The notes under the pieces were generated by a model. The model was not told the DNA's origin, did not search any database, and saw only the letters and a list, made by a program, of their open reading frames with translations. A stretch of 64,000 bases of DNA from Cupriavidus taiwanensis (GTDB taxonomy: Bacteria > Pseudomonadota > Gammaproteobacteria > Burkholderiales > Burkholderiaceae), in assembly GCF_900250115.1 (NCBI RefSeq), contig NZ_LT984803.1, positions 3,127,583 to 3,191,582 on the forward strand, written 5' to 3'. Below, piece by piece: positions 13,994 through 57,062 of this stretch (the first letter of the stretch is position 1; each line of letters starts with the position of its first letter). The position numbers and the translations under genes were made by a program.

Positions 13994-14055
13994 CCGGCAC
14001 CGCTGGCCGGTGAACGCACGCTTTCGCAAGGTCCTCGCAGCGGCCCGCCTGCAAA

Positions 14056-14100: not shown

Positions 14101-14126
14101 CAGCTAGCACACAACGGCGGAGACCC

Positions 14127-29919: not shown

Positions 29920-30087
29920 GATTTTCCCCTTCCTTGTCGTTGTACCCCGTTGAAACGTCGTCGGCCCGTGTTTTCCCTGCCATGCACCGGCGGGCCTGCC
30001 GGTGTGGTGCTTGCAATGTAGCGGATTCATAGCCCGCATTGGAATGCGCATCGGCCCGCTGTTCGTGCAATGCAACACATAACGTTC

Positions 30088-30337: not shown

Positions 30338-31240
30338 ATGATCATCGACACCAGCTGTTATCCGACCAACCTGGTGGACCTGGCCTGGCGCCACGACGGC
30401 GACCCGTTTACCGGCGAGCGCCTGATCCAGATGATGGACGGCCCATTCACCATCAACGGCAAGCCGCGCCGCATCGACAAGGCCTTTATCCAGCCGCCGC
30501 AAGGCAACACCATCTACACCTACACCGATGGCGTGAAGTCGGGCAGTGAATCGATCGACGCGTACATGGCCTACACGGTCGAGATGGTGCAGAAGTATCC
30601 CGACCGCTTTATCGGCTGCTTCGTCTACAACCCGCGCTGCGGCGTGCAGAACGGCGTCAACGCGATCGAGCACTACGTGAAGAAGCTGGGCTTCAGGATG
30701 GTCCAGTTCCAGGCCAACATGCACGCCTACCGCCCGGACCGCGCGCTCGACTGGCTGCGCCCGGCGCTGCAGAAATGCGCCGAGCTGGGCGTGCTGGTCA
30801 AGCTGCATACCGGCGACGGCCCCTACAGCATCCCGACCGAGTGGGTGCCGATGATGAAGGAGTTCCCGACCGTGAACTTCATCATGGCCCACTTCGGCGT
30901 GCAGACCGGCGGCGTGTACTGCTTCGAGCCGTTCCAGATGGCGATGGACATGCCCAACGTGTACTGCGAATCGGGCTGGTGCCTGCAGTCGCGCATCGTC
31001 GAGTTTGCCAAGGTGCTGCCCAAGCACAAGATCCTGTTCGGTTCCGACACCCCGCCCAACGAGCCCGGCATGTGGCTGCGCCTGCTGGAAGTGCTGTGCT
31101 TCGAGCCGCCGCAGGGCCTCAACCTGGATGAAGACACGCTCGAGGACTACCTCGGCAACAACGTGGCCCGGATGATCGGCCTGCAGCCGACGCCGGTCCC
31201 GCGCACGCTGGAAGAAGCGAAAGCGCGCCTGGCCGCATAA
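30338..31240 (+). CDS. Amidohydro_2-family protein with degenerate metal site (first of tandem pair)
   Basis: A 300-residue ACMSD/Amidohydro_2-type TIM barrel. It is closely related to the next gene, but the metal-binding HxH is replaced: residues 4-8 read DTSCY where the paralog has DTHLH. A second difference is QFQANMH where the paralog has KLHANMH. The later ligands remain (His157, His185, Asp near 237 in FGSDTPPNEPG). It could be a catalytically inactive partner of the paralog or use altered chemistry. The ATG at 30338 follows AGGGGA; an in-frame extension to 30209 is unlikely because the family starts with MIIDT. Confidence 0.85.
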   Translation: MIIDTSCYPTNLVDLAWRHDGDPFTGERLIQMMDGPFTINGKPRRIDKAFIQPPQGNTIYTYTDGVKSGSESIDAYMAYTVEMVQKYPDRFIGCFVYNPRCGVQNGVNAIEHYVKKLGFRMVQFQANMHAYRPDRALDWLRPALQKCAELGVLVKLHTGDGPYSIPTEWVPMMKEFPTVNFIMAHFGVQTGGVYCFEPFQMAMDMPNVYCESGWCLQSRIVEFAKVLPKHKILFGSDTPPNEPGMWLRLLEVLCFEPPQGLNLDEDTLEDYLGNNVARMIGLQPTPVPRTLEEAKARLAA

Positions 31241-31284
31241 GCCCCGCACCCGCGCCAACGACAACGGACTCCGGAGCACCCGAG

Positions 31285-32199
31285 ATGATTATCGACACCC
31301 ACCTGCACCCGACCAACCTGGTCGACGAAGCCTGGCGCCACACCGGCGAGCCCTTCAACGGCGAGCGCATGCTCAAGATGATGGACGGCCCCTACATGAT
31401 CAACGGCAAGCCGCGCCGCATCGACATGGGCTTTATCCAGCCGCCGCCCGGCAACACCGGCTACCGCGACGGCAACCGCCGCGGCCGCGAAGGCATCCGC
31501 GACTACATGGCGTATATCGCCGAGCTGTGCCAGAAGTACCCTGACCGCTTTATCGGCAACTTCACCTTCAACCCGCGCTGGGGCCCGGAAGAAGGCGCGC
31601 TGGAGCTGGAATTCCACGTCAAGGAGTACGGCTTCAAGATGCTGAAGCTGCATGCCAACATGCACGGCTACCGGCCCGACCGCGCGCTCGACTGGCTGCG
31701 TCCGGCGATGAAGGTCTGCGCCAAGTACAACGTGGTGGTGCTGATCCACACCGGCGACGGCCCGTACACGATCCCGACCATGTTCTACCCGATCATCCGC
31801 GAATTCCCGATGGTCAATTTCATCATCGGGCATTTCGGCATCCAGACCGGCGGCAACTACTCGTTCGAGGCGTTCTGGATGGCGATGGACACGCCCAACG
31901 TGTATTGCGAATCGGGCTGGTGCTTCCAGTCGCGCATCGTCGAGTTCGCGCGCCAGCTGCCGCGCGACAAGATCGTGTTCGGCACCGACACGCCGCCCAA
32001 CGAGCCCGGCATGTGGCTGCGCGAGCTGGAAATGCTGTGCGGCCCCGCGCCGCAGGGCATGGACCTGGACGAGGACGGGCTCGAGGACTACATGGGCAAC
32101 AACATCGCCCGGCTGGTCGGCATCGAGACCACGGCCCCACCCAAAACGCAGGAAGAAGCGCTGGCGCGGCTGAAGGATACCTACGCCAGCACCCGCTAG
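31285..32199 (+). CDS. Amidohydro_2-family metal-dependent hydrolase/decarboxylase (second of tandem pair)
   Basis: A 304-residue ACMSD-like enzyme with a complete metal site: HLH at residues 6-8, His155 (LIHTGDGP), His183 (GHFGIQTGG) and Asp235 (GTDTPPNEPG). Members hydrolyse or non-oxidatively decarboxylate aromatic and heteroaromatic acids or ring-cleavage products. The gene follows its paralog by 44 nt with GGAG upstream and precedes the UbiD-type gene, so one transcript is likely. Exact substrate unknown. Confidence 0.88.
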   Translation: MIIDTHLHPTNLVDEAWRHTGEPFNGERMLKMMDGPYMINGKPRRIDMGFIQPPPGNTGYRDGNRRGREGIRDYMAYIAELCQKYPDRFIGNFTFNPRWGPEEGALELEFHVKEYGFKMLKLHANMHGYRPDRALDWLRPAMKVCAKYNVVVLIHTGDGPYTIPTMFYPIIREFPMVNFIIGHFGIQTGGNYSFEAFWMAMDTPNVYCESGWCFQSRIVEFARQLPRDKIVFGTDTPPNEPGMWLRELEMLCGPAPQGMDLDEDGLEDYMGNNIARLVGIETTAPPKTQEEALARLKDTYASTR

Positions 32200-32300
32200 C
32201 CGGTAGCAGTCCGGCAGGCAGGCACGGCACGGCGGCTGCGCGCATGCGCGGCCGCCGGGGCAGCCTTCGCCCTGGCCCACCCTGACCACAGGAGCCGTTC

Positions 32301-33743
32301 ATGAACTCGCCTTCAGCGTCCTTTGCCCCGACCGCATCGGCGCGCCAGCCTTGCCACGATACCTCGCAGGATTTCCACCAGTTCCTGTCGGCCTACCGCG
32401 AGGCCTTTCCCGAAGACGTGCTGCATATCCGCGAGCCGGTCGGCGCCGACCAGGACCCGACCGCGCTGGTGTGGGCGCTGGCGGCGCAGGGCCGCCATCC
32501 GGCCCTGCTGTTCGACCATGTCGAAGGCCTGGGCACGTCGCTGGCCACCAACCTGTTTGCCTCGCGCGAGCGCGTGGGGCGCATGCTGGGCGGCGTGCCG
32601 CCCGCCGGCATCCATGCCGAGTACCAGGCCCGCAGCCGCCGCATGGTGGCGCCGCGCGTGCTGGATAGCGGCGCCGTCACCGGCCAGGTCGAGATGCAGC
32701 ACATCGACCTGCGCACGATCCCGGCGATCCGCCATTTCGCCACCGATCGCGGCCCGTACATCACCAACGCGATCCTGATCGCGGAGGACCCCGACAGCGG
32801 CATCGGCAACGCCAGCTACCACCGCTCGATGCTGCATTCGTCCACCGAGATTGCTACCAGCCTGCATTCGCGCGGCCACCTGTGGCGCATGCAGCAGCGC
32901 GCGGCCGGGCTGGGCCGGCCGCTGCCGGTGGCGATGGTGATCGGCGCGCATCCGCTGTTCATGCTGGCCGGCGCCGCGCGGCTGCCGTTCGGCGTGGACG
33001 AGCGCCATGTCGCCGGCGGCCTGTTCGGCGCGCCGCTGGAAGTGGTACGCACGCCGCGCCACGGCATCCTGGTGCCGGCGCATGCCGAGATCGTGCTCGA
33101 GGGCGTGATCGATCCCGAGGCGCGCGTCGACGAAGGCCCGTTCGGCGAGTTCACCGGCTACTCGTCGGACCGCTCGACCAACAACCTGCTGCGCGTGCAG
33201 AGCGTGATGCGACGCACCGACGCGTGGCTGGTCGACGTGGTCGGCGGCAACTCGGCCGAGCACCTGAACCTGGGGCGGATCCCGCGCGAGTCCGAGATGG
33301 TGGAGAAGCTGCGGGAGCGCTTTCCCGGCGTCACCGCGGTGCACTACCCCAGCTCCGGCACGCATTTCCACGCCTACGTGGCGCTGCGCCAGAGCCGCCC
33401 CGGCGAGGCCCGCCAGGTGATGCTGGGCCTGCTCGGCTGGGACCCGTACCTGAAGACGGTGGTCGCGGTCGACGAGGACGTCGACATCACCCGCGATGAG
33501 GAAGTGCTGTGGGCCATGGCGACGCACCTGCAGCCGCACCTCGACGTGGTGGTGGTCGACGGCCTGCCCGGCAGCGCGCTCGATCCGTCGGCATCCGGGG
33601 TCGGCACCACATCCCGCATGGGGCTGGATGCGACGCGCGGGCCGAATTTCGACGGCATTCGCGCGCGCATCGATCCCGCCGCGATGGCGCGCGCGGCCGC
33701 GCTGCTGGCGCGGCTGGAGCGTGCGGCCGCCCACGTGCCGTGA
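32301..33743 (+). CDS. UbiD-family prenyl-FMN-dependent decarboxylase
   Basis: A 480-residue UbiD-type (de)carboxylase. It carries the metal/prFMN-binding region GIGNASYHRSM, and EARVDEGPFGEFTGY with the catalytic acidic residues. UbiD enzymes decarboxylate or carboxylate aromatic, heteroaromatic and unsaturated acids and need prenyl-FMN made by UbiX. A second UbiX gene lies in the same cluster at 40194. The start at 32301 has AGGAG upstream. Context (molybdenum hydroxylase, nucleobase-type permeases, amidohydrolases) argues for a catabolic enzyme rather than ubiquinone synthesis. Confidence 0.9.
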   Translation: MNSPSASFAPTASARQPCHDTSQDFHQFLSAYREAFPEDVLHIREPVGADQDPTALVWALAAQGRHPALLFDHVEGLGTSLATNLFASRERVGRMLGGVPPAGIHAEYQARSRRMVAPRVLDSGAVTGQVEMQHIDLRTIPAIRHFATDRGPYITNAILIAEDPDSGIGNASYHRSMLHSSTEIATSLHSRGHLWRMQQRAAGLGRPLPVAMVIGAHPLFMLAGAARLPFGVDERHVAGGLFGAPLEVVRTPRHGILVPAHAEIVLEGVIDPEARVDEGPFGEFTGYSSDRSTNNLLRVQSVMRRTDAWLVDVVGGNSAEHLNLGRIPRESEMVEKLRERFPGVTAVHYPSSGTHFHAYVALRQSRPGEARQVMLGLLGWDPYLKTVVAVDEDVDITRDEEVLWAMATHLQPHLDVVVVDGLPGSALDPSASGVGTTSRMGLDATRGPNFDGIRARIDPAAMARAAALLARLERAAAHVP

Positions 33744-33775
33744 GGCACGCCTCAGGGATAACCCGCTGGAAACGG

Positions 33776-33846
33776 CGGATTCATCGTTTCACCCGATCGA
33801 TAAATCCGCCGCGAACGTTGTACCTTCCCTGCGCCGCTGTCATGCT
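33776..33846 (+). promoter_or_regulatory. Putative LysR operator and promoter of the first NCS2 permease gene
   Basis: A dyad CGGATTCATCG (33776-33786) / CGATAAATCCG (33798-33808), 10 of 11 bases complementary, lies upstream of TTGTAC (33818-33823), 17 bp, CATGCT (33841-33846). The same layout precedes the molybdenum hydroxylase operon at 36377-36448: GATTCA-N11-GATCRATWAATCCG, then 32-33 nt, then CATGMTGGATTGA. The shared layout suggests control by the LysR gene at 35387-36310. Confidence 0.65.
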
Positions 33847-33980
33847 GGATTGACAAGACAGGACAGGCGCGGGCTTCGCACGAGAGGATGGCAAGACCAT
33901 CCCGCAAGAGGAAGCGCCGGCACCTTGGCGACACGTTAGCGCAATGCGCAACCGGCGTGATACCGACCAAAGGAGACAGC

Positions 33981-35372
33981 ATGAACCCCACCCTGCCTAC
34001 GCAAGGGCATGCCCCAGTGCATCCCGTCGACGAGGTCCTGCCCGCGCCGCGCCTGCTGGCCCTGGGCCTGCAGCATGTGCTGGTGATGTATGCCGGCGCC
34101 ATTGCCGTGCCGATGATCATCGGCGGCGCCCTCAAGCTGCCCAAGGACCAGGTGGCCTTCCTGATCGCCGCCGACCTGTTCTGCTGCGGCCTGGTGACGA
34201 TGATCCAGAGCATCGGCATCTGGAAGGTCGGCATCCGCCTGCCGGTGATGATGGGCGTCACCTTCACCGCGATCGCGCCGATCATCGCCACCGGCTCCAA
34301 TCCGTCGCTGGGCCTTCCGGCCGTGTTCGGCGCGGTGATGGTGGCGGGCGTGTTCACCTGCTTTGCCGCGCCCTATGTCGGCAAGATGGTGCGCTGGTTT
34401 CCGCCGGTGGTGACCGGCACCGTGGTGCTGGTGATCGGGGTCTCGCTGATGCGGGTCGGGATCAACTGGGCGGCGGGCGGCAATCCCACCCTCAACACCC
34501 CGGCCGGCCCGGTGCCCAATCCCAGCTTCGGCCTGCCGGTGAACATCGCCATCGCCACCGCGGTGCTGTGCACGGTGCTGGCGCTGGTGGCGTTCGCGCG
34601 CGGCTTCCTGTGCAACGTTGCGGTGCTGATCGGCATTGCGGTGGGCTTCGCGATCGCGCTGGCGCTGGGCAAGGTCAATTTCGACGGCCTGCACAACGCG
34701 CACTGGATCGAGCTCATCACGCCCTTCCACTTCGGCTGGCCCACCTTCGACGCCATGACCGCGGTCACGCTGTGCGTGGTGATGATCGTGATCATGATCG
34801 AAGGCGTGGGGCAGTTCCTGGCGCTGGGCGAGATCGTCGGCCGCCCGGTCGGCTCGGAAGACCTGGCGCGCGGCCTGCGCGCGGACGGCGTCGGCGCGCT
34901 GGTGGGCGCCGTGTTCAACACCTTCACCTATACCTCGTACGCGCAGAACGTCGGGCTGGTGCAGGTCACCGGCGTGCGCAGCCGCTGGGTCTGCGCCACC
35001 GCCGGCGGCATCCTGATCGTGCTGGGCTGCCTGCCCAAGCTGGCCTTCTTCGCGGCCTCGATCCCGCAATATGTGCTGGGCGGCGCGGCGCTGGTGATGT
35101 TCGGCATGGTCGCGGCCACTGGCGTGCGCATCCTCGGCCATGTCGACTTTGTCGAGAACAAGAAGAACGCCTACATCGTCGCCGTCAGCGTGGCGCTGGG
35201 CATGATCCCGCTGGTGTCGGACAAGTTCTTCGCGCAGATGCCGGAGCTGCTGGCCAAGTTCTGCCAGAACGGCATCCTGCTCGGCACGCTGGCCGCGGTG
35301 CTGCTGAACCTGCTGTTCAACGCGCGTTCGCCGGCGCCCCAGCCCCACGGGCTGGCCAAGGAACCGGCATGA
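33981..35372 (+). CDS. NCS2 (NAT) family nucleobase-type permease, first copy
   Basis: A 463-residue permease with about 14 transmembrane segments. The NAT family QH motif (LGLQHVLVMYAG) is near residue 30 and the NAT signature reads QNVGLVQVTG, the Q-type seen in xanthine/uric acid transporters. It probably imports a purine-like or other N-heterocyclic substrate by proton symport. The ATG has GGAG upstream. The gene is convergent with the LysR regulator (14 bp between stops) and has a promoter that resembles that of the hydroxylase operon. Confidence 0.92.
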   Translation: MNPTLPTQGHAPVHPVDEVLPAPRLLALGLQHVLVMYAGAIAVPMIIGGALKLPKDQVAFLIAADLFCCGLVTMIQSIGIWKVGIRLPVMMGVTFTAIAPIIATGSNPSLGLPAVFGAVMVAGVFTCFAAPYVGKMVRWFPPVVTGTVVLVIGVSLMRVGINWAAGGNPTLNTPAGPVPNPSFGLPVNIAIATAVLCTVLALVAFARGFLCNVAVLIGIAVGFAIALALGKVNFDGLHNAHWIELITPFHFGWPTFDAMTAVTLCVVMIVIMIEGVGQFLALGEIVGRPVGSEDLARGLRADGVGALVGAVFNTFTYTSYAQNVGLVQVTGVRSRWVCATAGGILIVLGCLPKLAFFAASIPQYVLGGAALVMFGMVAATGVRILGHVDFVENKKNAYIVAVSVALGMIPLVSDKFFAQMPELLAKFCQNGILLGTLAAVLLNLLFNARSPAPQPHGLAKEPA

Positions 35373-35386
35373 AATAGCTGCCGCAG

Positions 35387-36310
35387 TCAGACGGCTTCGG
35401 CCAGCCTGGCGCGGTAGCGCATCAGCAGGTCGCGGAAGGCCTGCGCCGGCGGCGACAGCGACCGGTCCGCGTGCACCAGCAGCGAGATCTCGCGGTGGAT
35501 CACCGGATCGGTCGGCATCACCGTGGCCAGCCCCAGCGCGCCGGTCAGCCGCGTCACGGCCGCGCTCATCACCGCGATGCCCAGCCCGGCGTCGACCATG
35601 CCGACCATGGTCAGCGGCAGGAACACCTCGTGCACCCGCTGCAGCGTGATGCCGCGCGCGGCCAGTGCGGTGTCCAGGCAGTCGCGGATCGGGTTGCCCT
35701 TGTGCGGCCCGATCACCGGCAGGCCGGCCACGTCCTCCCAGCGCAGCGTCTTGCGCCGGCGCAGCGGATGGTGCGCGGGCATCACGATGACAAAGGCATC
35801 ATCCATCAGCCGGTGCGCGCTGAGGTCGGGCTGGCCCTCGGGGATGGTGCCGATGCCGAAATCGACCTCGCCCGAGCTGACCATCCTGGTCACCTCGTGC
35901 TCGGACACATCGTGCAGCTCCACCTTCACCCCCGGATGGCTCACGCAGAACTCGCGGATCACGCGCGGCAACATCAGCGCGGCCTGGATCGACGAGGCCG
36001 CGATCGACACGCGCCCGCGTCCCAGCGTGCGCAGCTCGCTGGAATTCTCGATCACGCTGTCGATATCGGCCACCGCCTTCTTCACCAGCGGCAGCAGCTC
36101 GGCGCCGGCCTGCGTGATGTGCAGCTGGCGCGTGTGGCGGTCGAACAGCTTCAGGCCGAGATTGGCTTCGAGCTCGTGGATCAGCGCGCTGACCGACGAC
36201 TGCGACAGGTCGAGCTTTTCGGCGGCGCGGGTGAAGTGGCGCTCCTGCGCCACGGCGATGAACGCGCGCAGCTGGCGCAGCGACACGTTCATGTTGCTGA
36301 GGTTGGGCAC
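35387..36310 (-). CDS. LysR-family regulator of the catabolic cluster
   Basis: A 307-residue LysR regulator with N-terminal HTH (LRQLRAFIAVAQERHFTRAAEKLDLSQSS is spread over about residues 11-40) and a C-terminal effector domain. The start is a GTG at 36310 with GGAGG 8 nt upstream; the later ATG at 36292 lacks a site. It is divergent from the molybdenum hydroxylase operon and convergent with the permease. Both target promoters share an operator-like block, and one lies in its own divergent promoter region, so autoregulation is likely. Confidence 0.92.
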   Translation of the reverse strand: MPNLSNMNVSLRQLRAFIAVAQERHFTRAAEKLDLSQSSVSALIHELEANLGLKLFDRHTRQLHITQAGAELLPLVKKAVADIDSVIENSSELRTLGRGRVSIAASSIQAALMLPRVIREFCVSHPGVKVELHDVSEHEVTRMVSSGEVDFGIGTIPEGQPDLSAHRLMDDAFVIVMPAHHPLRRRKTLRWEDVAGLPVIGPHKGNPIRDCLDTALAARGITLQRVHEVFLPLTMVGMVDAGLGIAVMSAAVTRLTGALGLATVMPTDPVIHREISLLVHADRSLSPPAQAFRDLLMRYRARLAEAV

Positions 36311-36376
36311 GTGGTCTACCTCCGGAATCTCGGGGTGCGCGCTCTGCGGCGAAGAGCCGGGGCTTGCGCGGCGCGT

Positions 36377-36448
36377 CTGATTCAGAGGGTAACACGATCA
36401 ATTAATCCGTTTCCGGGTCTTTACCGATAAAGGGCGCCCGCCCATGAT
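36377..36448 (+). promoter_or_regulatory. Putative LysR operator and promoter of the molybdenum hydroxylase operon
   Basis: GATTCA (36379-36384), an 11-nt spacer and GATCAATTAATCCG (36396-36409) match the permease operator with identical spacing (24 of 33 positions over the block). A promoter TTTACC (36420-36425), 17 bp, CATGAT (36443-36448) follows. CATGMTGGATTGA is 12 of 13 identical between the two sites. It lies between the divergent LysR gene and the hydroxylase genes. Confidence 0.68.
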
Positions 36449-36524
36449 GGATTGAACGGCGCGCACCCCACCGGACCTCGGCAGGACCGGCAGCCGCCGC
36501 CGATGGCACAGACCAGGAGGAGCA

Positions 36525-37396
36525 ATGAGAGCGTTTGAATATTTCGAACCGGCGACGCTGGCCGAAGCCTCGGCCATGCTGCACCGGTGCGGCGGCAAGG
36601 CCAGCGTGCTGGCCGGCGGCACCGATCTGCTGGTGCAGATCAAGGAATCCGTGCGCAAGCCCGAGCAGGTCATCAACATCAAGAAGATCCCGGGCATGGA
36701 CGTGCTGACCTTCGACCCGGTCAACGGCCTGCGCATCGGCGCGCTGGTGACCACGCGCGCGGTCGAGACCTCCGGCTTCGTGCAGCGTCACTACGCCGGC
36801 CTGGCCAAGGCGGTGACCGACTTCGCCTCGATCCAGGTGCGCCATCGCGCCACCGTGGTCGGCAATGTCTGCCGCGCGTCGCCGTCGGCGGATTCGATCG
36901 CACCGCTGGTCGCAGACGGCGCCTCGGTGCACCTGTATGGCATGTCCGGCTCGCGCGAGCTGCGCGTCGAGGATTTTGTCACCGGCGTCGGCAAGACCGC
37001 CATCGCGCCGGACGAGATCGTTACCCGCATCACCGTGCCGGCGCCACGACCCGGCACCGGCAAGGTCTATCTGAAGCATGGCCGCCGCGTGCATATGGAA
37101 CTGGCCACGGTTGGCGTGGCGGTAACGCTGACGGTGGCGGACGGCCACTGCGCCGACGCCGGCATCGTGCTTGCCGCGGTCGGCCCCACGCCCGTGCGCG
37201 CGGCGCGCGCCGAACAGGTGCTGCGCGGCCAGCGCCTGACCGACGCCCTGATCCTGCAGGCCGCGCACGCCGCCATGGACGAGGCCCGTCCGATCAGCGA
37301 CGTGCGTGCCACCGCAGCCTACCGGCGGCAGATGGTCAGCGTGCTGACCCGCCGCGCCCTCGAACAAGCCCTGGAGGCCGCCTTGAGCGGAGCATC

Positions 37397-37409
<13 letters not shown>
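36525..37409 (+). CDS. Molybdenum hydroxylase, FAD-binding subunit (CoxM/XdhB-like)
   Basis: A 294-residue medium subunit of the xanthine dehydrogenase/CO dehydrogenase family. FAD-binding motifs are AGGTDLLVQIK near residue 27 and HRATVVGNVCRASPSAD near residue 108. It passes electrons from the iron-sulfur subunit through FAD to the acceptor. It is the first gene of a medium-small-large operon and overlaps the small-subunit gene by 13 bp. Confidence 0.93.
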
Positions 37410-37908
<499 letters not shown>

Positions 37909-37909
<1 letters not shown>

Positions 37910-40197
37910 TGACCCACGCCGTGATCGGACACAGCGTCAAGCGCACCGACCTGCTCGACAAGGTCACCGGCAACGCAAGATACGTTGCCGACATGCCCTT
38001 CCCCGGCCTGCTGTACGGCAAGATCAAGCGCAGCAACGTCGCTCACGCCCGCATCCGCCGCATCGACACGTCACGCGCGCTGGCACTGCCGGGCGTCAAG
38101 GCGGTGCTGACGCACGAGAACGTGCCGCGCGTGCTGCACGCCGGCTCGCCGCATCCGCGCTCGGCGTCGGTGACCTGCGACCAGTACATCCTGGACAACA
38201 AGGTGCGCTACTGGGGCGAAGGCGTGGCCGCGGTGGCAGCGGTCAGCGAGGAGATCGCCGAGCGCGCGCTCGATCTGGTCGAAGTGGAATACGACATCCT
38301 GCCCGCGGTCTTCACCACGGAGGACGCCGAACGCTCAGACGCGCCGCGCATCCACGATCGCGAGCCCGGCGGCAACCTGGTGCTGCCGCCTGTTCTCATC
38401 AAACGTGGCGATGTGGAGGCCGGCTTTGCCGAAGCCGACTTCATCCTCGAAGGCGTCTACGAAGGCGGCCGCCCCACTCCCGCCTACATGGAGCCCAACG
38501 TCCTCACGTGCAGCTGGGACGGCAACGGCAACCTGACGGTGTGGATCTCCACCCAGACCGCCTTCATGGTGCGCGGCATCATGGCCGAGGTGCTGGGTCT
38601 GCCCCTGCACAAGGTGCGCGTGCTGGTCGATCACATGGGCGGCGGCTTCGGTGCCAAGCAGGACCTGTTCCAGCATGAGTTCCTGTGCGCGCTGCTGGCG
38701 CGCGAGACGCGCCGGCCGGTGCGCATGGAATACACCCGCGAAGAAACCTTCCTCGGCGGCCGCACGCGGCATCCGGCGAAGATCTGGCTGAAGCAGGGCT
38801 TCCGCAACGACGGCACCATCACCGCGCGCCAGGCCAGGGTGGTGTTCAACTCCGGCGCGTACGGCTCGCATGGCCCCGGCGTGACCAATGTCGGCACCGC
38901 CGCCATGGTGTCGCTGTACCGCTGCGACAACGTGCTGCTCGAGGGCCGCTGTGTCTATACCAACAGCCCCATCGCCGGCGCGTTCCGCGGCTACGGCGTG
39001 GTGCAGACCTACTACGCGCTCGACGTGCAGATGGACGAGGCCGGCGCGCACCTGGGCATGGACCCCGCCGAATTCAAGCTCAGGAACGCCGTCCGCGAAG
39101 GCGACATCGCGCCCTCGAACCATGCGCTGATCGGGCACGGCCTGGAAGCCTGCATCGAGCACGGCATGGCACTGCTCGACTGGCCCGCGCTGCGCCGCCG
39201 CCCGCGCGACACCAGCGGCCCGGTCCGCACCGGCTGGGGCCTGGGCTGCGAGATGCACGGCAGCAGCGCCTATCCCGGCATCAAGGAACAGGGCAACGCC
39301 ATCATCAAGATGAACGAGGATGGCACCGTGGTGCTGCTGACCGGCGCCGCCGGGCTGGGTACCGGTGCGCATACCGCCCTCGCCCAGATCGTGGCCGAAG
39401 AACTGACGCTGCCGTTCGAAGCGGTATCGGTGGTGCATGGCGACACCGACGTTGTCCCCTGGGACATCGGCGCCTTTGCCAGCCACACCACCTACATGGT
39501 CGGCAAGGCCGCGCAGATGGCGGCAGGCGAGATCAAACGCCAGCTGTTCGAGCGCGCCGCCAGGCTGATGGAGTGCGAGGCCGAGGACCTGACGCTGGCC
39601 GCCGGCGTGATCGCCGTACGCGACCGCGACGGCCCCACGCTGACCGTGCGCGAGGCGGTGATGCCGCGCAAGGGCATTCCCGCCGCGCAGCTGGTCGGCA
39701 CCGCCACCTATCACCCGACCAAGTCGTATTCGTTCGCCGCGCATTTTGTCGAGGTCGCGGTCGATACCGAGACCGGCTTCATCACCGTGCTGCAGGTGGT
39801 ACCGGTGCATGACGTCGGCAAGGTGATCCACCCGGTGGCGGCCGCGGGCCAGATCGAAGGCGGCATCCAGCAAGGCATCGGACATACGCTGTATGAGGAT
39901 TACCAGATCGACATGCGCACCGGCCGCTCGCTCAATGCCAACTTCGTCGACTACAAGATGCCGCTGGCGATGGATATGCCGGAGATCCGCACCGTGATCC
40001 TCGAAGCCGCGCCGGATCCCGGGGGCCCGTTCGGCGCCAAGGGCGTGGGCGAGGACCCGATCGTCGCGATCGGCCCGGCGATCGCCAACGCGGTGTTCGA
40101 CGCCATCGGCGTGCGCTTCCGGCACTACCCGATCAAGCCGGAACAGGTGCTGCAAGCGCTGGCGGAGAAGGCGGCACGGGAGGGCCGGCAAGCATGA
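37909..40197 (+). CDS. Molybdenum hydroxylase, large molybdopterin-binding subunit
   Basis: A 762-residue large subunit of the xanthine oxidase family. Visible are the Moco-binding GGGFGAKQ at 244-251, GAFRGYG, and the catalytic glutamate motif GVGED (Glu715) near the C-terminus. These enzymes hydroxylate an electron-poor carbon of N-heterocycles or aldehydes with water as the oxygen source. Two ATGs are adjacent; the second (37909) is preferred because AGGAGG would be only 1 nt from the first. The end overlaps the UbiX gene by ATGA. No CoxL-specific CO dehydrogenase assignment is made. Confidence 0.9.
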
Positions 40198-40790
40198 TCC
40201 GCAAGCAACGCCTGGTCGTCGCCATCACCGGCGCCAGCGGCGCGGTGTACGGCGTGCGCGTCCTGCAGGCGCTGGCGGCGCTGGACGGCTGGGAGACCCA
40301 CCTGGTCTGCTCGCCGTCCGGGCTGCTGACCGCGCACCATGAACTGGGCCTGCAGCGCCCGCAGCTGGAGGCCATGGCCGACGTGGTGCACAACGTGCGC
40401 GATATCGGCGCCACCATCGCCAGCGGCTCGTTCCGCTGCGACGGCATGGTGGTGGCGCCCTGCTCCATGCGCACGCTGGCCGCCATCGCCACCGGGCTGG
40501 CCGACAACCTCGTCACCCGCGCCGCCGACGTCATGCTCAAGGAGCGCCGCCGGCTGGTGCTGCTGGCGCGCGAGACCCCTTTCCACCTGGTGCACCTGCG
40601 CAACATGACCACGGTGACGGAAATGGGCGCCATCGTGCTGCCGCCGGTGCCGGCCTTCTACGCGCATCCGCAATCGGTCGACGACGTCGTCGACCACACC
40701 GTGGGGCGCGTGCTGGATCTGTTCGACGTACCGCACGACGGACTGGTGACACGCTGGCAAGGCCTGCGCCCCAATGTCGCCACCGCTTGA
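40194..40790 (+). CDS. UbiX-like flavin prenyltransferase (cluster copy)
   Basis: A 198-residue UbiX homolog, close to the copy at 2729 (shared VVHNVRDIGATIASGSF and VAPCSMRTLAAIA stretches). It makes prenyl-FMN for UbiD-type decarboxylases. Its ATG overlaps the large hydroxylase subunit stop (ATGA, 40194-40197), so it is co-translated with the hydroxylase. The obvious client is the UbiD-type enzyme at 32301. Confidence 0.9.
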   Translation: MIRKQRLVVAITGASGAVYGVRVLQALAALDGWETHLVCSPSGLLTAHHELGLQRPQLEAMADVVHNVRDIGATIASGSFRCDGMVVAPCSMRTLAAIATGLADNLVTRAADVMLKERRRLVLLARETPFHLVHLRNMTTVTEMGAIVLPPVPAFYAHPQSVDDVVDHTVGRVLDLFDVPHDGLVTRWQGLRPNVATA

Positions 40791-40845
40791 AAAGACCTAC
40801 CGCCTCGCGCTCGCGGGGAACGCAGCACCCTAATCAGGAGACAAC

Positions 40846-41940
40846 ATGAACGCACTTGCCGTCGCACCACAGCCGCCCGTCCCGGTCACCATCCTTACCG
40901 GCTTTCTCGGCTCGGGCAAGACGACGCTGCTGAACCACATCCTGACGCAGAAGCACGGCCACCGCATCGCCGTGATCGAGAACGAGTTCGGCGAGGTCGA
41001 CGTCGACTCCGACCTGGTGATGACCTCGGACGAAGAGATCTACCAGATGACCAACGGCTGCATCTGCTGCGTGGTCGATGTGCGCACGGACCTTGTGCGC
41101 ATCCTGCAGAAGCTGCTGGAGCGACCGGAGCGTTTCGACCACATCCTGGTCGAGACCAGCGGCCTGGCGGATCCCACACCAGTCGCGGCCACGTTCTTCA
41201 TGGACCACGAAGTCGCCAGGCAGGTCACGCTCGACGGCATCCTGACGCTGGTCGACGCGGTGCATATCGAAAGCCATCTGGACGATCCGCAGCTGACCGG
41301 CTTCGACAACCAGGCGGTCGACCAGATCGTCGCCGCCGATCGTGTGATCCTGAACAAGACCGACCTGGTCGACGCCGCGCAGCTGGACCGGCTCGAGGCC
41401 CGCATCCACCGCCTGAACGAGGGTGCCCAGATCCTGCGCTCCAACTTCGCACAAGTGGACCTGGGCAAGATCCTGGGCATCGGCGGGTTTACGCCTGGCT
41501 CGATCCAGGCCGATGCATACGATGCCCCCCACGGTCACGCCCAGGCGCACGACCATGAGGATCACGACCACGTCTGCGACGAGCATTGCGACCACGCACA
41601 CGATGACGATACGCACGGCCACCGCCACGATCCGTCGGTCACCTCCGTGTCGCTGGTATTCGACCAGCCGTTCGACCGCCAGCGCCTGGAGCACGGCCTG
41701 AAAGCGCTGCTGGCCGCGCAGGGCGACGACGTATTTCGCATGAAGGGCATCGTCGCGGTGGAGGGCGATGATCGCCGCTACGTGCTGCAGGCGGTGCACC
41801 GGCTGATGGATTTCCACCCCGCCGAGGCGTGGGGCGCGGAACCGGCGCAAAGCAAGTTCGTGTTCATCGGCCGCCATCTCGACAAGCCGCGGCTGCAGAC
41901 GCTGCTGAAGGTCTGCCTGCCGGTGGCGCAGGCCGCCTGA
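40846..41940 (+). CDS. CobW/COG0523 GTPase metallochaperone with His-rich loop
   Basis: A 364-residue G3E-family GTPase. The P-loop is GFLGSGKTT at 19-27, the family metal-binding motif is CICC at 72-75, the NKTD guanine-specificity motif follows, and an Asp/His-rich linker lies at about 225-260. A CobW C-terminal domain ends the protein. COG0523 proteins deliver zinc, cobalt or other metals to client enzymes. Placed between hydroxylase/UbiX genes and regulator, it may load the metal-dependent amidohydrolases or the deaminase of this cluster. Confidence 0.9.
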   Translation: MNALAVAPQPPVPVTILTGFLGSGKTTLLNHILTQKHGHRIAVIENEFGEVDVDSDLVMTSDEEIYQMTNGCICCVVDVRTDLVRILQKLLERPERFDHILVETSGLADPTPVAATFFMDHEVARQVTLDGILTLVDAVHIESHLDDPQLTGFDNQAVDQIVAADRVILNKTDLVDAAQLDRLEARIHRLNEGAQILRSNFAQVDLGKILGIGGFTPGSIQADAYDAPHGHAQAHDHEDHDHVCDEHCDHAHDDDTHGHRHDPSVTSVSLVFDQPFDRQRLEHGLKALLAAQGDDVFRMKGIVAVEGDDRRYVLQAVHRLMDFHPAEAWGAEPAQSKFVFIGRHLDKPRLQTLLKVCLPVAQAA

Positions 41941-41952
41941 TCGCGGCTGGCG

Positions 41953-41985
41953 GCAGCGGGACTGGCTTGCCGTCAGTCCCGCTGC
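41953..41985. terminator. Bidirectional terminator-like hairpin between cobW-type and araC-type genes
   Basis: An 11-bp perfect stem, GCAGCGGGACT (41953-41963) with AGTCCCGCTGC (41975-41985), lies between convergent genes and overlaps the last codons of the AraC gene. There is no T-run. Confidence 0.5.
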
Positions 41986-42980
41986 GACGCCGCCGTGCGC
42001 AAGGTCTGCGACGGCAGCTCGCCGAACTCGCGCCGGTACTCGCGCGAGAACAGGCTCAGGTGGGTAAAGCCATGGCGCAGCGCGATCGCGCCGACCATGC
42101 CCTGCTGCTGCCGCGCGCGCTGCAGGTCGGCGCGTGCGCCATGCAGGCGCAGCAGCCGCAGGTACTCCATCGGCGTGGTGTTCTTGCTCTTGCGAAAACC
42201 CAGCTGCAGCGTGCGCGCCGAGACCCCGCAATGCGCGGCGATCTGCTCCAGCGTCAGCGGCTGGTCGAGGTGGGCGCGCAGGTAGGCAATGGCGTGGCGC
42301 ACGTAGTCCGGCAACACCGCCTCGAACCGGCGCGGCAGCATATTGCCGTCCGCGGCAAAGCGGTCGAGCAGCAGCGTCGACAGCACGATGCGCTCGATGC
42401 TGGCATCGACCGCCGGCACGCCGCTGCCTTCGCGCCGCACCCGCGTTTCCGCGCGAAGGTAGCCGACCAGCGCCTGCCAGCGCTCGGCACGGCCATCGTC
42501 CGCCACCGGCTGCATGTCGAATTCGATCGGCGCCGGCGCGTCGAAGCTGAACTGCTGCCGAAACGCTTCTTCGATCAGCTGGCGCCGGATCACCACGCTG
42601 AAGCGCTCGCAGCCCGGATCGAGCGACAGCGTGGTCGGCACCGTGGGCGAGAACACGAAGGTCGCGCCCGGCGGCATCAGCATCGCGCCACGCGGCGTCT
42701 CCACGCGGCACGTACCGGCCAGCACGGTCTGGATCACAAACTCGTCCTTGTTCGGCTGCGGCTCGATCTGCACCGCCTGGTTGTAGGCGATGGTCACCAG
42801 CGTGAGCCGGCCGATGGTGCTGGTATCGATGCGCGCATCGAGCGCCGCATCGCCCTCCGCCGCGCGCAGCCGCGTCGGGCCGAATACGCGGCCGGACAGC
42901 GACTGGATGCGGTCGAGGTCCCCGCCACGACTGAACGGCGAGCGGGAGGCTGCGGCAGACCGTCCGACGGGGGGTGACAT
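41973..42980 (-). CDS. AraC-family transcriptional regulator
   Basis: A 335-residue regulator with an N-terminal AraC-binding-like ligand domain (ERFSVVIRRQLIEEAF region) and a C-terminal double HTH (LEQIAAHCGVSARTLQLGFRK; GFTHLSLFSREYRREFGELP). The open frame extends to 43130 but the upstream part is non-coding-like and contains a hairpin repeat; the ATG at 42980 is preferred although no clear ribosome-binding site is seen. It is divergent from the second permease/deaminase pair, its probable target. Confidence 0.85.
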   Translation of the reverse strand: MSPPVGRSAAASRSPFSRGGDLDRIQSLSGRVFGPTRLRAAEGDAALDARIDTSTIGRLTLVTIAYNQAVQIEPQPNKDEFVIQTVLAGTCRVETPRGAMLMPPGATFVFSPTVPTTLSLDPGCERFSVVIRRQLIEEAFRQQFSFDAPAPIEFDMQPVADDGRAERWQALVGYLRAETRVRREGSGVPAVDASIERIVLSTLLLDRFAADGNMLPRRFEAVLPDYVRHAIAYLRAHLDQPLTLEQIAAHCGVSARTLQLGFRKSKNTTPMEYLRLLRLHGARADLQRARQQQGMVGAIALRHGFTHLSLFSREYRREFGELPSQTLRTAASQRD

Positions 42981-43402
42981 GTGTGATGGGAACGGAAAGT
43001 TGGGGGAAGACAGACGCTTGCCTGCCGAGACGCATGACCTATGCCAGCAGCCGCGGTGCACGCTCCCCTCTCCCTCAAGCGGGAGAGGGGAGCAAACACG
43101 CGGTGCGCGACGCGCCTGCGCCACGAACAATACGCATCCATCCTATGGCTCCCACCCTGCTCACGCAACCCAAGGGAAATCCCTGACCCCTCAAGCACGC
43201 ATATTGCAGGTCCCGTTGCGGCCCGATGTCAGGGCCTTCGCAATAACGCTATGACAGCATGCCGCGCATCACTACTGTGCAAGGCATGCGCGCGCCATGC
43301 GCGGCGCATGGCACCGTGACGGACCGAGCCCGGCAACCACAGACCGGGCCAGCCGCCGCCGGCATGGCGCACTTTTCCCAGTACGCGGCAGGAGACCACA
43401 TC
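42981..43402. other. Divergent promoter region of the AraC gene and the permease-deaminase pair
   Basis: A 422-bp region without a gene. It holds a 13-bp perfect hairpin (listed separately) and a GC-rich palindromic area around 43260-43310. The LysR-type operator block found at 33776 and 36377 is not present here, which fits a separate regulator for this pair. Confidence 0.5.
43062..43093. repeat. REP-like 13-bp perfect hairpin
   Basis: GCTCCCCTCTCCC (43062-43074) and GGGAGAGGGGAGC (43081-43093) form a perfect stem with a 6-nt loop. Sequences of this type recur between genes in many Burkholderiales genomes; only one copy is visible in this window. Confidence 0.6.
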
Positions 43403-44752
43403 ATGCAACCAGCGGTTCACCCCGTCGACCAGATCCTCCCGGCACGCGCCATGGCGTCGCTCGGCTTCCAGCACATGCTGGTCAGTTACCTCGGCGCCAT
43501 CGCGGTGCCGATGATCGTGGCCGGCGCGCTCAAGATGACGCCGGCCCAGACCACCATGCTGATCAGCACCGCGCTGTTTACTTCCGGCATCGCCACGCTG
43601 CTGCAGACCGTGGGCTTCTGGAAGTTCGGCGTGCGCCTGCCGCTGATGCAGGGCGTGGCGTTCAGCTCCGTGGGCCCGGTCATTGCCATCGGCACAGACC
43701 CCACGCTGGGTTTTAACGGCGTCTGCGGCGCCATCATCGCCGCGGGCGTGATCGCGATGTTGCTGGCGCCCGTGATCGGCAAGCTCAAGCGCTTCTTCCC
43801 GCCGGTGGTGAGCGGCTGCACCATCACCGCGGTGGGCCTGTCGCTGTTCCCGGTTTCGTTTCACTGGTTTGGAGGCGGAAGGGGCGCGCCGGATTTCGGT
43901 GCGCCCATTTTTTTCCTGGTTGCCTTCGGCGTGGTGGCAATGATCCTGCTGATCAACCGGCACGGCGGCGAGCTGGTGCGCAACCTGTCGGTGGTGATCG
44001 GCCTGCTGGTCGGGGGCGCGGTGGCGTGGATGCTGGGCATGGGCAGCTTCGATGAAGTCACGCGCGCGCCGTGGTTCACCCTGGTGACGCCGTTCGCGTT
44101 CGGCATGCCGACCTTCAACATCGGCGCCATCACCACCATGGTGATCGTGATGGTGGTGCAGATGGTGGAATCGATGGGCCTGTTCATCGCCGTCGGCGAC
44201 ATCGTGAAGCGGCCGCTGACCGAGCGCGACGCCACCCGCGGCCTGCGCGCCAACGGCCTGGCCAGCGCCATCGGCGGCATGTTCGCGGCGTTCCCGTACA
44301 TCGCCTTCATGGAGAACGTGGGGCTGGTGATCGTCACCGGCGTGCGCAGCCGCTGGGTGGTCGCCACCTGCGGGGTGATGCTGTGCGCGGTGGCGCTGGT
44401 GCCCAAGATCGGCGCGTTGTTCGCGTCGATCCCGGCCGCGGCGCTGGGCGGCGCCACCATGGTGATGTTCGGCGTGGTCGTCGCCGCCGGCATCAAGACG
44501 CTGGGCGAAGTGGACTACGAGCGCAACCCCAACAACCTCTCCATCGTCTCCATCACGCTGGGCTGCGCGATGATGCCGGTGATGCTGCCCGGCATGCTCG
44601 AGAAGCTGCCCGGCTTCCTGCAGCCCTTCGTCCACAGCAGCGTGATCATCGCCTGCGTGGTTTCCGTGGTCCTTAACCTGATTCTCAACGGCCTGCCAGC
44701 CCGTGAAGCCGACGAGCTGCCCGCCAGTGCCGACAACGTCCAAGGGGTCTGA
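43403..44752 (+). CDS. NCS2 (NAT) family nucleobase-type permease, second copy
   Basis: A 449-residue permease with about 14 membrane segments. The QH motif is FQHMLVSYLG and the NAT signature is ENVGLVIVTG, with Glu in place of the Gln of the first copy. Glu is allowed in the family but may change substrate preference. The ATG has GGAGA 8 nt upstream. The stop is 4 nt before the deaminase gene, so the two are one unit: import followed by deamination is the natural reading. Confidence 0.92.
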   Translation: MQPAVHPVDQILPARAMASLGFQHMLVSYLGAIAVPMIVAGALKMTPAQTTMLISTALFTSGIATLLQTVGFWKFGVRLPLMQGVAFSSVGPVIAIGTDPTLGFNGVCGAIIAAGVIAMLLAPVIGKLKRFFPPVVSGCTITAVGLSLFPVSFHWFGGGRGAPDFGAPIFFLVAFGVVAMILLINRHGGELVRNLSVVIGLLVGGAVAWMLGMGSFDEVTRAPWFTLVTPFAFGMPTFNIGAITTMVIVMVVQMVESMGLFIAVGDIVKRPLTERDATRGLRANGLASAIGGMFAAFPYIAFMENVGLVIVTGVRSRWVVATCGVMLCAVALVPKIGALFASIPAAALGGATMVMFGVVVAAGIKTLGEVDYERNPNNLSIVSITLGCAMMPVMLPGMLEKLPGFLQPFVHSSVIIACVVSVVLNLILNGLPAREADELPASADNVQGV

Positions 44753-44756
44753 AAAC

Positions 44757-46160
44757 ATGGTGCACAACACCAACGCCACCGCCGCGCCCGCCGGCGACCT
44801 GCTGATCCGCAACGCCGCCGCCGTGATGACCGGCCGCGCCGGCGCCGCCGCGCGTGCGGGCGCCGTGGACATCCGCATCCGTGACGGCCGCATCGCCGAG
44901 ATCGGCGCCGGCCTGCCATACCACGACGGCGAAGCCGTGCTCGACGCCAGCGGCTGCGTAGTCTATCCCGGCTGGGTCAATACCCATCACCACCTGTTCC
45001 AGAACCTGCTGAAGGCCGTGCCCAGCGGCATGAACGTCGGGCTCGAGCAATGGCTCGCGGCCGTCGCCTATCCACGCCTGTCGCGCTTCAGCCCGGAGAT
45101 CTTCCGCACCGCGGTGCGGCTGGGCATGGCGGAGCTGCTGCTGTCCGGCACCACCACCTGCGCCGATCACCACTACCTGTATCACCACGGCCACGGCGCG
45201 GAAACCGGCGACGTGCTGTTCGAGGTTGCCGAAGAGCTCGGCATGCGCCTGGTGCTGTGCCGCGGCGGCGCGATCCAGTCGGCATCGGATCATCCCGGCA
45301 TGCGCGCCACCGCGCTGGTGCCCGAAACCCTGGACGAAATGCTGGCCGATATCGAACGGCTGAAAGCGCGCTACCACGATCCCGCCCCCGATGGCCTGCG
45401 GCGCGTGGTGGTGGCCCCGACGACACCGACCTTTTCGCTGCCGCCGGCGCTGCTGCGCGAACTCGCCGCCTTTGGCCGCGGCATGGACCTGCGCCTGCAT
45501 TCGCATCTGTCCGAGACCGGCAACTACGTCACGTTCTGCCGGGAGAAATACCAGTGCACACCGGTGCAGTTCGCCGCCGACCACGACTGGCTGGGCCCGG
45601 ATGTCTGGTTCGCCCACCTCGTTACGGTGAATCCCGAAGAAATCCGCATGCTGGCCGTGACCAACACCGGCATGGCGCATTGCCCGGTCAGCAACGCGCG
45701 TCTCGGCAGCGGCATCGCGCCGGTGCGAGCCATGGCGGATGCGGGGGTGCCGATTTCACTCGGCGTCGACGGCGTCGCCTCCAATGAATCGGGCAGCATG
45801 GTGCATGAGGCCAACTTCGCCTGGCTGGTGCACCGCGCGCTCGGCGGTGCCGCCCAGACGCGCGTCGAGGAAGTGATTCATTGGGGCACTGCCGGTGGTG
45901 CGCAGGTACTTGGGCTGCCTGGTATCGGCACGCTTGCGCCCGGGCAGTCGGCGGATCTGGCGATCTATGACATCAGTGGGCTGCGCTTCCATGGGTTCCA
46001 TGACATCGGCACGGCGCCGGTCGCGGCTGGAGAGCCGACTCCGGTCAGGGATGTGCTGGTGCGGGGGCGGCAGGTGGTGCGCGATGGGGCGGTGGTGGGG
46101 TTGGATCTGGAGAAGCTGAGGCGGGAGGCGCGGGAGGCGTTGGTGGGGTTGGTGGATTGA
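44757..46160 (+). CDS. Amidohydrolase of the ATZ/TRZ-8-oxoguanine deaminase type
   Basis: A 467-residue metal-dependent deaminase. The metal motif NTHHHLFQN is at about 75-83 (HxH at 77/79), and HSHLSETGNY near 246 and the GVDG aspartate near 339 complete the site. The VNTHHHLFQNLLKAVP context is that of 8-oxoguanine/isocytosine-type deaminases. Other members deaminate pterins or s-triazines. It follows the second permease by 4 nt. The 3' end becomes unusually G-rich. Substrate class (amino-substituted N-heterocycle) is well supported; the exact compound is not. Confidence 0.85.
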   Translation: MVHNTNATAAPAGDLLIRNAAAVMTGRAGAAARAGAVDIRIRDGRIAEIGAGLPYHDGEAVLDASGCVVYPGWVNTHHHLFQNLLKAVPSGMNVGLEQWLAAVAYPRLSRFSPEIFRTAVRLGMAELLLSGTTTCADHHYLYHHGHGAETGDVLFEVAEELGMRLVLCRGGAIQSASDHPGMRATALVPETLDEMLADIERLKARYHDPAPDGLRRVVVAPTTPTFSLPPALLRELAAFGRGMDLRLHSHLSETGNYVTFCREKYQCTPVQFAADHDWLGPDVWFAHLVTVNPEEIRMLAVTNTGMAHCPVSNARLGSGIAPVRAMADAGVPISLGVDGVASNESGSMVHEANFAWLVHRALGGAAQTRVEEVIHWGTAGGAQVLGLPGIGTLAPGQSADLAIYDISGLRFHGFHDIGTAPVAAGEPTPVRDVLVRGRQVVRDGAVVGLDLEKLRREAREALVGLVD

Positions 46161-46304
46161 GGGGGGCTTGGGGGTCGGCTCGGGCTATCGGCCGGGTGAA
46201 TTGCGTGGAATGGCTATGCGTCACAGCCCCCTTCAGCAAGAAGCCGCAAGTCTCCAAAACATTGAGATCCATCCGGTTGAAGTCGGCATTCATGGCTGCA
46301 GGCA

Positions 46305-46889
46305 TCAATCGATGTTAGGCAGCGACTCCCATAGGGCGATAATTTCTTCCTTCGTTGCCACTTTCGCTTTGCTAGCATGATCTTCAAGAACAAAATTGCC
46401 ATAAAGAACCCCGCCATGTCGAAGATAGCGGACGGCAACGTGACATGTCCCGGTGGGACGATAAACCGAGCCACCCTTTAGATCACAATCGACCTCCGCT
46501 GCATATATCGTTGCCCCCGACTTTAGCTCAAGCCGCGCCGCCGGATACGAGGAGATGCCGCTTGCTATGCTGACTTCCCGGCGTTGAGAAAATTCCCAAT
46601 TTGAGGTGACTTGCGGGACGGAAAAAACACCAAAATCTCGCAAAAACTTCTCACTCTGCGTAGAGCAAAGGTATCCGAATTTCCTCTTGGACCTCGTTAG
46701 AGTGAAATCAAGGCAAGTGGTGCCTGGATATTGGCGCGTTAGCTTTTTTGCTTGGCGGAAAGCAAATGCCGCCGGCGGCTTTATATTGGAAATCAGCTCG
46801 GGCGATAGCGGCTGTCCAGCGCTTGATGCGGTAACCGAAAAAAAAGCAAGCAAGGCAAGTAGGCTGGCCGTTGCGCGAGACGTCATCAT
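46305..46889 (-). CDS. Exported protein, candidate periplasmic immunity protein
   Basis: A 194-residue protein with a clear signal peptide (to about residue 25) and four Cys in the mature part. The family is not recognised. Base composition is clearly less GC-rich than that of the host genes. The ATG overlaps the stop of the GH19 gene (ATGA, 46886-46889), which couples it to the peptidoglycan hydrolase. Immunity proteins to cell-wall-targeting type VI effectors are exported and encoded directly downstream, so this role is inferred from position and signal peptide. Confidence 0.7.
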   Translation of the reverse strand: MMTSRATASLLALLAFFSVTASSAGQPLSPELISNIKPPAAFAFRQAKKLTRQYPGTTCLDFTLTRSKRKFGYLCSTQSEKFLRDFGVFSVPQVTSNWEFSQRREVSIASGISSYPAARLELKSGATIYAAEVDCDLKGGSVYRPTGTCHVAVRYLRHGGVLYGNFVLEDHASKAKVATKEEIIALWESLPNID

Positions 46890-49140: not shown

Positions 49141-49160
49141 TGGACACCCTCTCATCACGG

Positions 49161-54253: not shown

Positions 54254-54291
54254 CGATGTCTCCTCTCCGTCTTTATCGTTCGCGCCAGCCG

Positions 54292-55311: not shown

Positions 55312-55347
55312 GGTGCGGTGGTCTCCTTGTTGTCGGGTAGGGATGGT

Positions 55348-56793: not shown

Positions 56794-56931
56794 CAGCGGT
56801 ACCTCGGCAGGTCTGTTGGCAGCGGCATCGTGCGTGCATCCGGCGTTGTCTTCGATGCGGTGAAGTGTGCACGCAGCCGTGGTGTCCAACGTGCGGGGCT
56901 TTCGCCATTCACTACGGCAAACGCTGCATTT

Positions 56932-56963
56932 GATTGCGGAATCGGCCGTACTCCGCCGCAATC
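56932..56963. promoter_or_regulatory. Inverted repeat in the divergent promoter of the hexonate genes
   Basis: GATTGCGG (56932-56939) and CCGCAATC (56956-56963) form an 8-bp perfect dyad in the 269-bp space between the divergent reductase and dehydratase genes. AATCGGCC occurs twice around it (56940, 56960). A candidate operator, possibly for the GntR regulator at 62887. Confidence 0.45.
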
Positions 56964-57062
56964 GGCCCGCAGTAATCTGGCCGCATCCACACCGATGCGG
57001 GCGCTGCCAAACCAGGCGGCGCCATCGGGCCACGACAACGACGATCCGGCCGGAGACACCCT

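Follow-up and report, generated by a model that had tools for sequence, protein, structure and literature searches.

The 64,000-nucleotide stretch of Cupriavidus taiwanensis DNA analysed here (contig NZ_LT984803.1, positions 3,127,583 to 3,191,582; hereafter referred to as the window) comes from a genome of 7.0 Mb and contains, at positions 30338–46160, thirteen neighbouring genes that probably serve to take up pterins and convert them to xanthine, a form of pteridine catabolism. The genes, numbered by window position, and the profiles they match are as follows; AH1 and AH2 denote the two Amidohydro_2 genes, and Mo stands for molybdenum.

30338..31240 (+), AH1, Amidohydro_2 paralogue (Pfam PF04909)
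31285..32199 (+), AH2, Amidohydro_2 metalloenzyme (PF04909)
32301..33743 (+), UbiD-family decarboxylase (TIGR00148, 272.7 bits, cut-off 244.85)
33888..35372 (+), NCS2 nucleobase-type permease, start uncertain (TIGR03173, 537.2 bits, cut-off 414.15)
35387..36310 (-), LysR regulator (PF00126/PF03466)
36525..37409 (+), Mo hydroxylase, FAD subunit (PF00941/PF03450)
37397..37909 (+), Mo hydroxylase, 2Fe-2S subunit (PF01799/PF00111)
37906..40197 (+), Mo hydroxylase, molybdopterin subunit (PF02738/PF20256/PF01315)
40194..40790 (+), UbiX flavin prenyltransferase (NF004685, 288.7 bits, cut-off 188)
40846..41940 (+), CobW/COG0523 GTPase, a probable metallochaperone (PF02492/PF07683)
41973..42962 (-), AraC-family regulator, start uncertain (PF14525/PF12833)
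43259..44752 (+), second NCS2 permease, start uncertain (TIGR03173, 473.9 bits, cut-off 414.15)
44703..46160 (+), cog0402 deaminase, start uncertain (PRK12393, NF009059, 787.8 bits)

Every part named in a preliminary description of this DNA (two Amidohydro_2 genes, UbiD, two NCS2 permeases, LysR, the Mo hydroxylase, UbiX, CobW, AraC and the deaminase) was present, with family-level support from profile matches. The 888-residue open reading frame at 37531–40197 that had been taken for the Mo subunit starts too early; the true subunit is the shorter one listed above, which follows the 2Fe-2S gene.

When the same gene set was sought in other genomes, it proved to be one conserved functional unit. 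Scanning GTDB species genomes with UbiD gave 228 encoding stretches, the best 80 of which are the loci counted throughout. The core neighbour calls are based on tblastn (E ≤ 1e-8, ≥ 40% coverage); the GC-based gene caller was noisy. At the 50 loci whose flanks extended the full 10 kb, an Amidohydro_2 relative lay within 10 kb of UbiD in 49 cases, CobW in 46, any Mo hydroxylase in 40, UbiX in 36, an NCS2 permease in 36 and a relative of the deaminase in 29, the deaminase query being blind to unrelated deaminases such as the one in Sinorhizobium. Among 299 genomes of the host's family, AH2 and UbiD were present in the identical 64, and AH1 adjoins AH2 in these same-family genomes. The PRK12393 deaminase scored over its cut-off in 74 of the 299, namely in 62 of the 64 AH-positive and 12 of the 235 AH-negative genomes (Fisher p = 4e-49), and within the genus in 23 of 23 AH-positive genomes versus 3 of 17 others (p = 3e-8); neither p-value takes relatedness into account. 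In 58 of the 62 genomes, by a hand reading of the listings, the deaminase lay on the same contig as AH2 and no more than 20 kb from it, the exceptions being G002, G177, G202 and G137. Because AH2, UbiD and the PRK12393 deaminase co-occur across the family genomes, we conclude that the cluster genes belong together. A random grouping of genes is ruled out by the same co-occurrence.

The six Cupriavidus loci L003–L008 carry UbiD proteins 94–97% identical to the host's. An Amidohydro_2 gene beside UbiD is also kept in Burkholderiales, Sinorhizobium, Chelativorans, an Oceanospirillaceae and a Holophagaceae metagenome-assembled genome, and Actinomycetota. On Sinorhizobium meliloti pSymB, the annotation places together two amidohydrolases, UbiD, UbiX, NCS2, a GTP-binding protein and three subunits of the xanthine dehydrogenase (XDH) family, with GntR, another amidohydrolase and a BMP-type ABC transporter in the same set. 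When 350 genomes of the wider class were sampled, AH2 or UbiD was found in the host genome only, which makes that sample uninformative. Other genes recur at the edges of these loci. An arylmalonate-decarboxylase/Asp-Glu-racemase family protein (cluster c22) stands beside the cluster at 7 loci, for example at 13138–13908 (+) of L026, and a BMP-type ABC importer (clusters c11–c13) adjoins it at L015, L024, L029, L048 and others. An NMT1-type binding protein occurs at L042; like the BMP-type importers, we regard it as a transporter alternative only.

The cog0402 gene is proposed, from its sequence relationships, to encode an isoxanthopterin/pterin deaminase. Its product scored far over the PRK12393 equivalog cut-off (787.8 versus 543 bits) but below that of the 8-oxoguanine deaminase model NF006055 (428.3 versus 532 bits), and the earlier label '8-oxoguanine-deaminase-like' is therefore replaced by the type of PDB entry 2paj. 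The closest PDB sequence was 2paj (453 bits, 51.2% identity), followed by 3hpa (284.6 bits, 39.1% identity). PDB names these entries only 'putative cytosine/guanine deaminase' and 'amidohydrolase'; we take 2paj to be isoxanthopterin deaminase and 3hpa to be 8-oxoguanine deaminase. The host protein, which reads APTT, shares the APT and SE(T/S) motifs with 2paj, where 3hpa has APCS and AEN; we take these to be pocket motifs. All 23 deaminases at non-actinobacterial loci were closer to 2paj and had APT(T/S) and SE(T/S). The 2paj enzyme is reportedly the product of an environmental gene, described as isoxanthopterin deaminase by Hall et al. in Biochemistry in 2010, whereas the host deaminase lies inside a multi-enzyme cluster.

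The Mo hydroxylase fell below the XDH cut-offs (TIGR02965, 311.2 versus 849.5 bits; XdhA NF043082, 660.1 versus 780 bits), and XDH is ruled out by score, the true XDH lying elsewhere in the genome. The xanthine oxidase-type Mo hydroxylase of the preliminary description thus stands as a three-subunit enzyme but not as a xanthine dehydrogenase. The best PDB match of the Mo subunit was 4-hydroxybenzoyl-CoA reductase (391.9 bits); 6-hydroxypseudooxynicotine dehydrogenase and quinoline 2-oxidoreductase came next. Despite this match, we rejected 4-hydroxybenzoyl-CoA reductase as the identity of the enzyme because its cut-offs were missed as well (TIGR03194, 585.9 versus 994.55 bits; FAD subunit TIGR03195, 94.1 versus 404.55 bits). 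Residues 713–716 of the molybdopterin subunit form a GVGE motif, the glutamate of which is presumably catalytic. Loci of Burkholderia, Paraburkholderia and Caballeronia have instead a distant Mo subunit (23–26% identity) with a 2Fe-2S subunit, as seen in the family scan of L026.

AH1 and AH2 are paralogues with 66% identity, and only AH2 has the metal motif HxH in strand 1, so that the two Amidohydro_2 genes noted earlier are both there without being equivalent. AH1 has DTSCY in place of DTHLH; SCY was found in 47 of 47 aligned AH1 copies and HxH in 76 of 76 AH2-type copies. In the AH2 alignment, which AH1 entered as one row, H155, H183 and D235 were invariant in 40 rows, and H6, H8, H155, H183 and D235 occurred together in 28 of the 40, the other 12 being AH1-type. 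We take HxH, H, H and D to be the metal/catalytic pattern of AH2, and AH1, judged by its residues, is likely a non-catalytic partner of AH2. By analogy, the partnership may resemble that of a related zinc decarboxylase that relies on an arginine lent by an adjacent subunit. Structure comparison of the AlphaFold2 model of AH2 (pLDDT 85.1) gave a predicted fold of the ACMSD/IDCase/LigJ type. This branch of Amidohydro_2 has the fold and the metal-ligand pattern in common with AH2, but its structures are only 14–21% identical to it and are decarboxylases or hydratases, as opposed to the net isomerase proposed below; the AH1 partner without HxH further sets the host pair apart.

UbiD has R175, E278 and E283 invariant in 19 rows, presumably the catalytic R-E-E triad of the family. 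The nearest PDB sequences were 6h6x and 6h6v (227.8 and 226.2 bits) and 7p9q, 'AnInD' (157.3 bits); we take the former two to be a furan-dicarboxylate enzyme and the latter an indole-carboxylate enzyme, that is, enzymes for five-membered heteroaromatic acids. UbiD is a proposed xanthine-8-carboxylate decarboxylase. Both NCS2 permeases scored over the cut-off of the xanthine-permease subfamily, which is what TIGR03173 represents.

Enzymes predicted to degrade xanthine are encoded outside the window. Its true XDH lies at C1:971739 (1365.1 bits), and a PuuD-type urate oxidase lies at C1:964444, in a stretch that also holds the allantoinase PuuE. By hand comparison, XDH was over its cut-off in 64 of 64 AH-positive and 151 of 235 other family genomes. 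We searched the 80 loci by tblastn with the proteins of the host's own purine operon and found urate-pathway genes adjoining the cluster at four. L040 has three such proteins over their cut-offs (the allantoinase PuuE, OHCU decarboxylase and allantoate amidohydrolase) and an HIU-hydrolase-like protein under its own (79.5 versus 87.45); L034 has an HIU hydrolase over the cut-off; L047 has an HIU-hydrolase-like protein under it (78.7) and a glyoxylate carboligase; and at L081, in Pseudonocardia nigra, a single open reading frame (13170–15167, +) beside the cluster joins an NCS2 permease to an OHCU decarboxylase.

The order of reactions has a precedent in enzymology. McNutt and Damle reportedly described in Alcaligenes, in the 1960s, the deamination of isoxanthopterin, its oxidation to tetraoxypteridine, the isomerisation of the latter to xanthine-8-carboxylate (EC 5.5.1.3) and decarboxylation to xanthine. 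For every step of this route, the cluster has a gene of the fitting class, with the xanthine-degrading enzymes elsewhere in the genome. We know of no genes or sequence attached to EC 5.5.1.3 or to xanthine-8-carboxylate decarboxylase.

At the level of sequence, the gene families, the conserved unit, the affinity of the deaminase to 2paj, the distinction of the Mo enzyme from XDH and the urate genes lying elsewhere or beside a few clusters are consistent with a pteridine-degradation operon that delivers xanthine. Pteridine catabolism as the overall function is reasonably well supported. We hold this model, with all of the following steps, to be slightly better supported than not; every substrate and the order of the steps are inferred, and the activities are predicted ones. 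The NCS2 permeases would import a pterin, and the PRK12393 deaminase would strip its 2-amino group, turning isoxanthopterin into 7-hydroxylumazine. The Mo hydroxylase with its three subunits would then oxidise pyrazine ring carbons to give 6,7-dihydroxylumazine (tetraoxypteridine). AH2, working with the degenerate AH1 and a metal supplied by CobW, would open the oxalyl-diamide ring and reclose it as an imidazole, acting as a net isomerase (EC 5.5.1.3) with xanthine-8-carboxylate as its product. UbiD, with prenyl-FMN from UbiX, would decarboxylate this acid to xanthine, and the separate XDH/urate operon of the host would complete the breakdown. The near-invariant core of AH and UbiD (together at 49 of the 50 full-flank loci) could supply a step of ring remodelling and a step of decarboxylation. 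AH and UbiD would be the isomerase and the decarboxylase, to which variable deaminases and hydroxylases would adapt different pteridines. AH1/AH2 as the sequence-orphan tetraoxypteridine isomerase is our inference, and this exact assignment of AH and UbiD appears to us evenly balanced between right and wrong.

The preliminary description had proposed a dedicated pathway for an amino- and carboxy-substituted N-heteroaromatic compound, with a pterin among the examples. The genes do form one conserved unit, probably for an amino-substituted compound of this kind, whereas the carboxylate on which UbiD acts is more likely made in the pathway by ring contraction, as xanthine-8-carboxylate, than imported. 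The accompanying statement that no such pathway was described was not contradicted for the genes, as searches of the open-licence PMC literature listed no paper linking them to pterin breakdown in its title or the opening of its abstract; the chemistry, in contrast, was reportedly described in the 1960s. No papers were found for the locus tags of the Sinorhizobium cluster, the tags used being guesses.

Several observations speak against the pteridine-to-xanthine model. The AH2 structural neighbours of known activity are mostly decarboxylases (ACMSD, IDCase, dihydroxybenzoate, 5-carboxyvanillate), a few are hydratases or hydrolases, and no isomerase is among the 50 structural matches listed. 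A deaminase relative and a Mo hydroxylase are missing from the vicinity of UbiD more often than AH is, as the counts of 29 and 40 of the 50 loci indicate. Two family genomes (G229 and G233) carry AH and UbiD without a PRK12393 protein over the cut-off, and the 12 AH-negative genomes with one (G190, G286 and G009, for example) may use it in another pathway. Shared ancestry confounds the co-occurrence, and many genomes of the family have XDH in any case. None of the 12 deaminases at actinobacterial loci is closer to 2paj, all being nearer 3hpa instead, and the deaminase of the Sinorhizobium cluster is nearest to cytosine deaminase. It seems, then, that the slot for a deaminase acting on an N-heterocycle persists even where the enzyme filling it belongs to another lineage. 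As for the link to purines, the tblastn search found urate-gene neighbours at none of the other 76 of the 80 loci and matched urate oxidase at 0 of 80. PMC7373994 lists PRK12393 among the genes under the xanthine riboswitch (NMT1 motif), but scanning the window and 21 of the 80 loci gave no such motif at gathering score.

The fold of AH2, which resembles the decarboxylases IDCase, ACMSD and LigW, would also suit a different substrate, pterin-6-carboxylate from folate breakdown. In such a route, the Mo enzyme would hydroxylate C7, and either AH2 would be an IDCase-like decarboxylase of 7-hydroxy-6-carboxypteridine or UbiD would take the 6-carboxylate directly, with ring opening left to enzymes elsewhere. 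Relatives of 8-oxoguanine deaminase from the Sargasso Sea act on pterin-6-carboxylate as well as on isoxanthopterin (PMC5270733), and a folate-degrading Variovorax makes deaminated pterins whose fate is left open in PMC9513972; another Variovorax has the cluster (L015). This route, however, either puts two decarboxylases to work on a single substrate or finds no role for AH or UbiD, and gives the conserved core no ring-opening enzyme. We consider it unlikely, although it is the most credible of the alternatives. Less probable still is that the same logic applies to another N-heteroaromatic, natural or man-made, such as a pyrazine, pyrimidine or azaarene carboxylate: the Mo subunit is related in sequence to enzymes such as quinoline 2-oxidoreductase and nicotinate dehydrogenase, and different deaminase lineages fill the slot elsewhere, but this would account neither for the affinity of the deaminase to 2paj nor for the urate-gene neighbours. 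A purine-type route for 8-substituted or oxidised purines (8-oxoguanine or purine-8-carboxylates, for instance) with no pteridine stage, which the xanthine-permease scores of the NCS2 proteins and the urate-pathway genes at 4 of the 80 loci would suit, is the least probable and was rejected as first choice, since the deaminase scores too low against the 8-oxoguanine deaminase model and falls with 2paj, and the genome already has a separate XDH/urate operon.

If the model of pteridine conversion to xanthine is true, the cluster would supply genes for a pathway described, as far as is known, by enzymology only, and would offer candidates for two orphan activities, EC 5.5.1.3 and the xanthine-8-carboxylate decarboxylase. 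It would add a purine acid to the UbiD substrates and provide a route by which folate and other pterin waste could feed into purine breakdown in Cupriavidus, Burkholderia, Variovorax, Sinorhizobium and Amycolatopsis. With somewhat less confidence than in the model itself, and short of an even balance, we suggest that AH1/AH2 may be the missing EC 5.5.1.3 pair, contracting pteridine to purine through hydrolysis and cyclodehydration with, in Proteobacteria, a duplicated partner that lost the metal motif; that UbiD may be the first prenyl-FMN decarboxylase with a purine-8-carboxylate as substrate; and that the two may form a bridge between pteridine waste and purine breakdown in soil bacteria belonging to several phyla.

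A related system, described in PMC9513972, is the pterin deaminase of Variovorax F1, which is 37% identical to Arad3529. Pterin 2-deamination is the entry step there, as proposed for the cluster. The Variovorax protein is a 399-residue enzyme with the downstream steps left open, and we liken it to the host system by description. The same paper asks how bacteria decompose deaminated pteridines beyond the first steps, a question to which the cluster offers a testable answer. Among its references are McNutt 1963 and Levenberg and Hayaishi 1959, which deal with the deamination of folate and pterins.

Immediately to the left of the cluster lies a gene for a GH114 glycoside-hydrolase-family protein (29041–30078, -). 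Immediately to its right, the GC content drops to 0.54 over window positions 46001–50780, a segment that looks like a type VI secretion system effector island. It encodes two proteins without a Pfam match (46305–46889, -, and 46886–48100, -), an M23-peptidase-like protein that scored under the cut-off (48037–49164, -) and a VgrG-type protein of the type VI secretion system (49161–50780, -). Farther along, at 52388–57033 (-), a TRAP transporter (a DctM/DctQ fusion and DctP) adjoins a mannitol-dehydrogenase-type enzyme.

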